Assembly: GCA_019448385.1 (NCBI GenBank)
Contig: JAGTXO010000013.1
Span: 620,001 to 684,000, forward strand
Source of the DNA: Diacronema lutheri
Lineage: Eukaryota > Haptophyta > Pavlovophyceae > Pavlovales > Pavlovaceae
Length of the DNA stretch: 64,000 nt
Reading direction: 5' to 3'
The notes under the pieces: generated by a model
What the model saw: the letters and a program-made list of their open reading frames with translations, nothing else
Database searches by the model: none
Told to the model about the DNA's origin: nothing
In this document: positions 26,814-45,725 of the stretch, in pieces
Layout of the letters: each line of letters opens with the position of its first letter
Numbering within the stretch: the first letter of the stretch is position 1
Made by a program: the position numbers and the translations under genes

Positions 26814-29560
26814 TCAACGCCGGCCGCGCTTCGGCCCGCGCGCGCTGCCGCCGCCGGCACTGGCGCTGGCAGCTCCGCGGGCGGGGGTGCGGGCGCGAGA
26901 GCCGCCGCCGCCACCGCCGCCGCGCCCGCCGCCGTCGTCGCCACCGCCGTCGCCGCCGCCGCCTCCCCCGCCGTCATCGTCGTCGTCGCCGCCGCCGCCT
27001 CCGTCGCCGTCGCCGTCGCCGTCGCCCTCGCCGCCGCCGCCGTCGCCGCTGCCATCGTCGTCGTCGTCGTCGTCGCCCTCGTCGTCGCCCTCGTCGTCGC
27101 CGTCGCACTCGTCGTCGCAGTCGTCGCCCTCGCCGTGCACCATGCGCTCCTCACGCTCCCACACCTCGCCGCGCGCCCACCAGGCGAGCACGAGGGCAAA
27201 GCGCTCAGGCGTCGACGTGGTGTCGCGCCCGGCCGCGTGCGCCGCCATGTCGTGCACGTCGTAGAAGATGTTGCGCGCGGCGTTGTAGTCGCGGTGCACG
27301 GGCTTCTTGCCGCCGTTGCACGCCGGGCAGATGACGAGCGCGTGCACCGTGCGCGTGCCGCCCTTTGCCACGGGCAGGCGCGGGTTCTGCGCGAGCTCCG
27401 CGCCGCAGCGCTGCAGCCTGCCGCCCTTGGCGAGCCGCGGCATCGAGCAGTGCATCGACGTGTACGGCTCGGGCACGAAGACGGCCGCGACGCCGCGCCG
27501 CCGCAGCTCGCGCAGCAGCCCCACCTGGAAGGCGGGCGGCGCGCCCTTGGGCTGCGCGCCCTTGTGGTCGCGCAGCCACTTGCCCACGCACACGAGCAGC
27601 CGGTCGCGCGTCACGCCGTCGACACAGTGCGCCGCGATGAGCGCCTCGGCGACGCGCGCCGCGTTGGACCGCCCGCCGCTGTCGCGCCGCCAGCGCTCCT
27701 TCCGGCGCGCCGGCGCGTCGTACACGTGCTCGGCGGCGCGCTCGCGCACCCGCGCGCTCTCGCGGTGGAAGGCGTGGAACTCGCCCTCGCCGAGCACCTT
27801 GGCGCTGTGCGCCTCGCCAAGCCGCGCCTCGTCCGCCTCCACGCTGAACTCCTCGCCGCGCCCGTCCTTGCGCACGCGCCGCCGCGCCGCGTTGGTCTTG
27901 GCCGTCTCGCGCGCAAAGCCCGCGGCGCGCGCGCGCGCGCGCTGCGTGAACTGCCGCCAGACGGCCGCCCGCCCGACGTGCGCAGAGTAGGTGGTGATGT
28001 TGCCCATGTTCGGGTCGGCCGCGACGACGACCGCCGCCTCGACGTCGATCGCCCGCCGCAGCTCGGAGCCGAGCGCGACGGCGATGCGCCCGTCCGGCCG
28101 GCGCCAGCGGTGCAGGACGCCCGAGCCGCCGGCCGGCGCCTGCGCCTTCGGCACGAGGACGGTCCCGACGGCGTGCACGGCGACGCCATCTGTCACCACC
28201 GACTTGACGGGCTGCCGGCCCGGGAGCGGCACGCGCGGCAGCGGCGCGAGGCCAACCCACGAGCGCCGCGCGTGCCACGGCAGATCGGCCGGCGGCCGCT
28301 CGCGCCCGGCGTAGTCGAAGACGCGGTTGGAGATGTCGAAGCGCGTCGCAAAGACCGCGTACCTGACGCGCACGTCCGACATCGGCGGGGTGTTGCCGTT
28401 TGTGCCTGTCCACTTGATCGGCTCGCCATCGTGGTCGCGCAGGTCCAGCGCCTTGAGCCGCGCGCGCAGCTCCTTGCGCTCGTCATCCGAAAGCGTCACC
28501 CAGATGGCGCTCGCGGCGAGGCGCACGTTGCGCGGCACCTGCGCGCAGCGCGCGGCGCGCGAGCGCGCGGGCGCGTGACCAACCTGGCCGCGGGGCGGCG
28601 CGCACGGCGGCGGCGCGCGCGCTTGGGCGCTCGGCGGCGGCAGCGGCAGCCACGCCTCGCGCGCACATTGTGCGTGCGCAGCGGCGCCACATTGTACCGC
28701 GGCGGCCGTCCGGTCAGCTGCGTGTGGATGTGCGCGAGCCGGCAGAGCAGCGCCTGCCCCTCGGCCACGTGCTGCAGGGTGCGGATCTGCACGAGGAAGT
28801 AGCGCGTCGTGTGCCGGTCGTAGTTCCACCTTTTCGTGGGCGTGCACTTGTAGTCGATCTTGTGGAGGACCATGTCGGGCAGGTGGCGGTCGAGCGCGGC
28901 GGGGCAGCCGACGCGCGCGCCCTCCACGTCGCCGCGCAGCAGCCGCTCGCACAGCTCGCGCACGCGCGCGTTTCGCTGCATCTCGGGCAGCGCGACGAGC
29001 GCCTCGTCGCGCTCGACTGCCGCGCGGACGACGTCGCGGAGCAGCCCGTTCACGACGCGCGATGGATGCATCAGGCACGCGGTGGACACCTGCGTCGCCT
29101 CCGCCTCGAGGATCTCCGTGAGGCCCACCGCGCAGACGGGCTGGACGCCCTCGGCCATCTCGCCGACGGCGCGCGCCGTCGCCGCCTTGGTCTGCGCGGC
29201 GGCTTGCTCGGCGGGCTTGCCTCGGGGCGCTGCACCGTACGTGCTCTCGTCCTTGTGCCAGCCGATGGCCGAGAAGATCGCACGGACGGTTCCCTTGTCC
29301 ATCGTGGTCGACGTGTGCACGCTGGTCGACGGGCCGCCCGACGCCGCGCCGACGGCCTGCGCGCTCGCCACCGCAGCCTCGTCGCGCACCACCTTGTTGA
29401 TGACGCGGTACGCCTGTGTCGTGAGCCTGTGCACGGCCGCCGCGATGCGCCGCAGCTCCTTCCGCGCACCGGGCTGCGCCGTCACCGCCTGCGGCCCCGC
29501 GTTGAGCGTCGAGCGCTTGACCACGAAGCCCGGGAGCACGCTGACGCGCGTGCGCGCCGT
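26814..29560 (-). other. Fanzor (eukaryotic TnpB-like) nuclease module at the C-terminus of the giant protein
   Basis: The N-terminal part is in exon 2 (GARKELRRIAAAVHRLTTQA, then YRVINKVVRDE, and later IDYKCTPTKRWNYDRHTT). Exon 3 starts VPRNVRLAASAIWVTLSDDE. The split RuvC site is complete: RuvC-I Asp5817 in VVVAADPNMGNITTY, RuvC-II Glu5999 in VFVPEPYTSMHC, RuvC-III Asp6059 in VHRDYNAARNI. Zinc-ribbon cysteines lie between (YTSMHC, LQRCG, CPACNGG). In TnpB and Fanzor these sit in an RNA-guided DNA-cleaving fold, and E-x-YTS...C...CPxC...RDxNAARN is diagnostic. An extraordinary tail of Asp/Gly runs, then an Arg-rich end, follows the catalytic core and is not typical. All catalytic residues are present, so the module looks intact. 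Confidence 0.85.

Positions 29561-45725: not shown

Follow-up and report, generated by a model that had tools for sequence, protein, structure and literature searches.

The window analysed here is a stretch of 64,000 nucleotides from the haptophyte alga Diacronema lutheri (contig JAGTXO010000013.1, positions 620,001 to 684,000). Between positions 26814 and 45725, its minus strand holds what is well supported as a single very long gene that ends in a predicted Fanzor nuclease. This giant gene is the main gene of a mobile element of 31,055 bp (26409..57463, minus strand) which, judging by genome-wide pattern counts, is now present in about 200 copies, full or partial.

Structure of the giant gene

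The gene is composed of three exons, all on the minus strand: (i) exon 1 (42051..45725), a stop-free translation of 1,225 codons with an ATG start; (ii) exon 2 (28667..41917), with 4,417 codons and no stop; and (iii) exon 3 (26814..28538), with 574 codons plus the stop, which corresponds to the Fanzor1-type nuclease part. They are separated by two predicted introns, intron 1 (41918..42050, 133 nt) and intron 2 (28539..28666, 128 nt), both on the same strand, GT-AG and in phase 0, and the joined exons give a single open reading of 6,216 codons (1,225 + 4,417 + 574 residues). A previous sequence-only reading of this DNA had proposed these introns, exon coordinates and lengths, and all of them proved exact.

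That reading had also maintained that the frames go beyond chance driven by GC content, and this is borne out. The longest open run reaches 4,516 codons, whereas 100 dinucleotide shuffles of 26814-45725 averaged 890 and never exceeded 1,577. A codon model built from exons 1 and 3 agrees, as it places the stated frame of exon 2 best of six in 26 of 29 scoring windows; conversely, under a model built from exon 2, the stated frame wins in 8/8 windows of exon 1 and 3/3 of exon 3. Near 42050 and 28670 the coding score fades in the upstream frame, and near 41930 and 28540 it picks up in the next one, so that the switches at both joins match the positions predicted by the proposed introns (the score is absent within intron 1 and changes frame across intron 2). 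The splice sites are weak when taken alone: GT-AG pairs of 40-400 nt that would connect the frames in a compatible phase number 119 at the first join and 249 at the second. Both GT..AG and intron length are unchanged in 4/4 (intron 1) and 10/10 (intron 2) aligned copies of the element, a conservation that counts for little because the copies are near-identical. A rearranged copy (C8) was excluded from this comparison, as well as from those of indels and of the 3' stretch described below.

Copies of the element provide further evidence. An open gene is present in at least three full-length copies (the one in the window, C30:252 kb and C9:1.13 Mb). Of the four copies besides the window copy that span all the exons, C30a, C3 and C9 are open, and C30:932 kb is interrupted once, by a stop at exon 2 codon 1,105. 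Ten aligned copies, mostly partial, show 32 indels in the exons, and the length of 29 is a multiple of 3; of the other three, two are adjacent and sum to +27, and one is -1. By comparison, in the non-coding stretch 45726-49092, reached by four copies, the length of 1/21 indels is a multiple of 3. The frame, the codon evidence and the open copies thus back a single gene of great length with a Fanzor at its end.

Domains of the predicted protein

The giant protein is predicted to carry three domains: a RecE/lambda-type exonuclease, a chromodomain and a C-terminal Fanzor1-type nuclease. The RecE/YqaJ/lambda-type exonuclease domain (33095..33670, minus strand; residues 2750-2941 of exon 2) is matched by the profiles phrog_434 of PHROGs (E 5.9e-16) and TIGR03033 of NCBIfam (E 7.6e-6, below its cut-off), while PF09588 gives E 0.017 in the window copy, below its cut-off, and E 5.9e-5, above it, in another copy (C71). 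Besides, SPDG and VEVK in exon 2 fit the D..ExK motif of RecE/lambda exonucleases; profile match and motif together place the domain in this group. The match extends over the domain, as in known members, but here it lies in a giant protein of a eukaryotic element and not in a phage gene. The chromodomain (29822..29974, minus strand; residues 3982-4032 of exon 2) is recognised by PF00385 with E 5e-12, above the cut-off.

Exon 3 is matched by PF07282 (Cas12f1-like_TNB) with E 1.7e-6 and 28.5 bits, against a curated cut-off of 26.3. The Fanzor motif has been described as D-X(125,275)-[TS][TS]XX-[C4 zinc finger]-X(5,50)-RD (PMC3627910; here and below, published work is cited for those parts of each paper that were covered). 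In exon 3 this motif is complete, comprising D175, E357, T360-S361, C364/C378/C404/C407 and R416-D417, and the corresponding residues are present in a database relative (P0005, 45% identity). Its alignment to exon 3, like those of two further relatives (P0005-P0007; short contigs, 39-45% identity), starts at the first codon. Since that codon is also a possible bacterial start codon, their start may be a cut made by the gene caller. For the REC/WED N-terminal lobe of the Fanzor, the expected place is the end of exon 2. When solved structures were searched with an exon 3 profile, the best match was Cas12f (E 0.012, terminal part only); the same searches with exon 3 alone, the exonuclease, the ubiquitin hydrolase and the second Fanzor family of the genome (the latter two are described below) gave nothing useful.

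The sequence-only reading had, in addition, named a protease. The candidate Ulp1-like cysteine protease (37838..38332, minus strand) shows the residue order H-D-Q-C by eye only, and the label lacks profile support: Pfam gave no match, and no protease profile appeared at E<=10 in the ten segments of the giant protein scanned. Neither was there a convincing match for internal protease-domain repeats, the best pairs of non-overlapping segments having a domain E of ~0.005. The polyprotein-like character that the sequence-only reading attributed to the gene, with cleavage of the product into units, would therefore be conjectural.

With respect to exon 2 as a whole, no relative at E<=0.001 was found among 1,379 protein-database candidates scored. 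Its middle part has a single match (P0008) among 8,000 candidates scored. This is a EukProt record named for Pavlova lutheri, identical to residues 2305-2729 of exon 2 at 424/425 positions, which may derive from either RNA or DNA.

Ends and copies of the mobile element

The limits of the element were derived from the homology limits of its copies and are sharp. On the 3' side, the match to the window ends at 26408-26412 in five flanked copies; of six copies located at contig starts, five begin at 26409-26422 and one well inside the element. On the 5' side, the match of the C30:252 kb copy ends at 57463. The 5' ends read TATATA, a variable base and GGCGCGG in 22/23 cases (TATAGA in the remaining one), the last flanking base before them being C in 20/23; the 3' ends read CATC and then TATAC in 26/27. 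Of the 19 copies with both flanks, 18 have no shared stretch longer than 7 nt, the exception being a copy with a 13-nt repeat. A fixed 4-nt TATA target duplication is possible, because both ends of the element carry TATA.

The assembly searched contains 43,492,796 bases in 103 contigs; the published assembly of strain NIVA-4/92 has 43,502,671 bp and 73% GC (PMC8379373). Exact pattern counts across the genome gave 210 3' ends, 176 5' ends, 163 exon 1 starts and 215 exonuclease matches, and PF07282 gave at least 148 genome matches (from the best 150 of 306 candidates scored). The main aligned blocks of the copies are 94-99.95% identical to the window. When 100 3' ends and 90 5' ends, among the matches listed up to contig C46, were paired with the nearest partner on the same strand, at least 62 two-ended copies were obtained and 38 3' ends had no partner among those matches. 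According to size, the two-ended copies can be grouped as follows: (i) 30 of 30.4-31.2 kb; (ii) 12 of 21.4-21.7 kb; (iii) eight of 29.1-29.5 kb; (iv) seven of 26.0-27.0 kb; and (v) five others. They total 1.735 Mb, that is, 4.0% of the assembly. The 21.5-kb class has the exact exon 1 start in 0/12 copies and the PF07282 match in 12/12, and the exonuclease pattern is present in 11/11 of its copies that fall among the matches listed.

The same genome harbours a second Fanzor1 family of conventional size, seen as about a dozen equal-scoring PF07282 matches, which is open to the edge of the locus over 586 residues in L002, L005, L006 and L008.

Other content of the element

Downstream of the giant gene, the 3' untranslated stretch (26409..26813, minus strand) ends at the element boundary and is a candidate guide-RNA (omega RNA) region. 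Its 405 nt show no substitution in 7/10 aligned copies, two of these seven having a 1-nt indel. The stretch contains a subterminal hairpin, GGGGCGCGATCGTGCCCC (26437..26454, minus strand). Near the 5' end of the element there is an 18-nt perfect palindrome (57399..57416, minus strand). A comparison with Rfam at the gathering threshold gave no match.

Upstream of the giant gene, two further coding regions can be recognised on the minus strand: (i) an open reading frame (ORF) similar to ubiquitin carboxyl-terminal hydrolases (49093..50505; PF00443 E 3.6e-8, profile positions 2-100 of 254); and (ii) a Pif1-type helicase (51300..54022, approximate limits), whose conserved motifs run over changing frames and are matched in two ORFs by PF05970 (E 3.7e-14 and 1.5e-24) and PF21530 (E 4.5e-13). 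By eye, the helicase motifs change frame four times without gaps of intron size; the helicase is apparently decayed, and the neighbouring gene of 6,216 codons is open. The element also holds an inverted duplication (54579..55464) with 378-nt arms that are 100% complementary, where the C30:252 kb copy lacks 551 bp. The arms contain telomere-like GTGTAGG repeats. No match to a transposase, recombinase, Rep, polymerase, integrase, reverse transcriptase or capsid appeared in the ORFs scanned, a set that does not include every small ORF.

Proposed mode of spread

The DNA itself shows where the element ends, how many copies it has, that the spliced frame is open and that the three domains are there; from this we infer that RNA-guided cutting, resection and copying-in constitute the spreading route. 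We consider it probable, although well short of certain, that the main gene of this ~200-copy, 31-kb element makes a giant protein, and that RNA-guided cutting together with exonuclease-driven recombination spreads the element. In described Fanzor loci, the guide of the RNA corresponds to the sequence just outside the 3' end of the element (PMC10432273), and the giant gene ends 405 nt before the element boundary, a position like that of such loci. The Fanzor would be loaded with a guide RNA read from the 3' end of the element, the guide part being flanking host DNA, and would cut matching uninterrupted sites or sister copies. The attached RecE-type exonuclease would resect the break, and recombination would then copy the element in, perhaps with a Pif1-type helicase acting in trans; Pif1 helicases drive break-induced replication. 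As guesses from knowledge of the respective families, the chromodomain might keep the protein bound to chromatin, and countering host control might be the role of the ubiquitin-hydrolase-like gene.

A number of observations weigh against this proposal or against the gene model beneath it. Concerning the gene model, the single-gene reading is a prediction from the DNA sequence, and the AlphaFold models of exon 3 (pLDDT 44) and of the candidate protease segment (pLDDT 42) are too poor to use. The sequence-only reading held that the second join continues the Fanzor fold; by eye this is plausible, but a pairwise alignment across intron 2 with the second Fanzor family of the genome was not significant, 88/1000 shuffles being as good. 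The indel pattern is supportive and no proof, because the same exon indels recur in up to seven copies and most of them sit in tandem repeats with multiple-of-3 units (+33 at 31939 and +3 at 28394 lie outside the listed tandem arrays). In exon 2 the single-base differences between copies appear neutral (60 synonymous vs 62.4 expected) and none of those in exon 1 is synonymous (0 vs 3.1 expected); exon 3 shows a weak excess of synonymous ones (15 vs 9.2). Purifying selection, when sought in these differences, thus gave no signal in exon 2, a weak one in exon 3 and the opposite trend in exon 1, the copies being too alike to decide; neutral-looking differences in exon 2 are expected for recent copies.

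Concerning the spread, (i) the 3' stretch folds no better than its shuffles (z -1.13); (ii) no recombinase was recognised in the ORFs scanned; (iii) in the window copy the reading frame of the helicase is interrupted, and C30:252 kb shares the break, since between 51690 and 54067 no indel distinguishes it from the window; and (iv) the 21.5-kb class recurs without the exon 1 start 12 times in 62, which implies that the whole gene is not needed in cis.

Alternative explanations

The region might instead comprise several genes, with, for instance, the exonuclease and Fanzor parts expressed from separate promoters inside exon 2. The single transcript across the exons is a prediction; the 21.5-kb class keeps the exonuclease and PF07282 in the absence of the exon 1 start, so that the C-terminal part can persist alone; and P0008 begins at an internal Met. 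However, no stop separates the domains over 4,417 codons, the stated frame prevails in nearly all the scoring windows of exon 2, and P0008 ends within the same open frame, looking like an assembly fragment. We regard this division as unlikely.

Next in likelihood, and again unlikely, comes a rolling-circle transposon similar to Helitron2, which would have acquired a Fanzor, as in Chlamydomonas, and whose RepHel would have decayed here. Helitron2 elements with Fanzor1 are known, and those of Chlamydomonas (CRe-1,2,3; PMC3627910) resemble the present one in that the Fanzor lies in a repetitive element with a 3' hairpin. Helitrons likewise encode a helicase, and a Pif1-type one is present here; moreover, the absence of shared flanking stretches longer than 7 nt in 18/19 pairs and the subterminal hairpin at the 3' end are in agreement with such an origin. 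Nevertheless, no Rep/HUH or Helitron profile matched in the ORFs scanned, and the longest inverted match between the first 150 and the last 200 nt measures 7 nt, whereas asymmetric inverted repeats of 8-15 nt are the mark of Helitron2 (PMC3627910). The length of 31 kb and the fused giant gene are further differences.

An integrated virus or Polinton-like element, in which the giant protein would be a structural or tegument-like polyprotein, is highly improbable. The size, the ubiquitin hydrolase, the exonuclease and the helicase represent gene types that also occur in viruses, and by eye there is a possible membrane ORF at 53919-54497. But no polymerase, integrase, capsid or packaging-ATPase profile was found in the ORFs scanned, and four scans of a viral collection revealed no related contig. 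Terminons and Polintons (PMC6431247) are similar to the element in size range and in having several accessory genes; they differ from it in that no reverse transcriptase, polymerase or integrase was found here in those ORFs. Finally, a chance origin of the long frame from a GC content of about 80% can practically be dismissed: other frames are also long, with 1,707 codons in antisense, but the shuffles, the codon model and the in-frame domain matches reject a chance reading.

Comparison with known Fanzor systems

Like the giant gene, Fanzor1 proteins (PMC3627910, PMC10432273, PMC11423790) have the RuvC aspartates and glutamate, [TS][TS]xxC, four cysteines and a terminal RD. They are likewise carried by mobile DNA and their gene ends a few hundred bases before the end of the element. 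That Fanzors travel on mobile DNA had been stated in the sequence-only reading and holds here too, although the ~200-copy, 31-kb element itself had been missed. In contrast, most known Fanzor1 proteins have 600-700 residues (PMC11423790), whereas here the nuclease forms the end of a predicted protein of about 6,216 residues that also includes an exonuclease and a chromodomain. An uncharacterised Fanzor element of Auxenochlorella, the most abundant repeat of its genome (PMC12636532), is also abundant, algal and of no assigned class; its host, however, is a green alga, and no giant gene is described in the parts of that paper covered.

The sequence-only reading did not know this architecture from the literature and, consistently, no description of a giant Fanzor appeared in the titles and abstract openings listed from the open-access literature searched (subscription papers and preprints outside it lie beyond this scope). 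The D. lutheri genome paper (PMC8379373) does not mention the element in the parts covered. What is known is Fanzor-bearing mobile DNA; what would be new is the fused giant gene and the proposed mobilisation route. Saito et al. (PMC10432273) only propose that Fanzors help transposons to propagate, and their role for the carrier elements is unsettled. Here, a Fanzor and a RecE-type exonuclease share one predicted reading, with many near-identical copies, at least three of them open, and hence the idea of cutting and copying becomes directly testable in an alga already in culture. The arrangement may show how RNA-guided nucleases help mobile DNA to spread. In any case, the element fills much of a compact genome, 1.74 Mb in the two-ended copies and about 200 full or partial copies overall.

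Contig ends and flanking sequences

Among the matches listed, 12/93 3' ends and 1/79 5' ends lie 10 nt or less from a contig end (Fisher p 0.0035), a comparison made on known-length contigs selected in part for having Fanzor matches close to an end, which biases the 3' rate upward. The contigs ending at an outward-facing 3' terminus are C1, C3, C5, C6, C8, C10, C12, C13, C14, C32, C33 and C43; the single contig end at a 5' terminus is the start of C32, and further contigs break off within the element. Repeats can be expected to interrupt an assembly, but the asymmetry between 3' and 5' ends and their exactness go beyond that expectation. The contig ends at the 3' terminus may possibly be free DNA ends or, alternatively, an artefact of repeat assembly. 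A wider proposal would assign the element to a class of its own among giant eukaryotic mobile elements, one that lacks a classical transposase: its single protein, an RNA-guided nuclease joined to a recombination exonuclease, would both cut and perform the copy-in repair, homing would be RNA-guided and the 3' ends would maybe be free DNA ends; this is offered tentatively and with considerable doubt.

The notion that the contig ends at the 3' terminus are simply telomeres was rejected, because TTAGGG arrays occur at some contig ends. Besides the TTAGGG found elsewhere, telomere-like variants (TAGGGG, TAAGGG, GGGTGA and AGGGTC) are found at the starts of contigs C9, C13, C14, C20, C21, C33, C36, C45, C46 and C50.

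An empty site, sought by means of a repeated flank, was also rejected, since that flank is the end of another repeat, and no clean empty site was found. As for the sequences next to the element, a 189-bp tandem repeat (24514-25045; 2.8 copies, 97% matches) in the window also adjoins the C30:252 kb copy (L015:3204-3902). Another repeat family, which ends in ...GCGCCGTTAGT and is often followed by AT-rich sequence, adjoins several copies of the element (L053, L074-L085).

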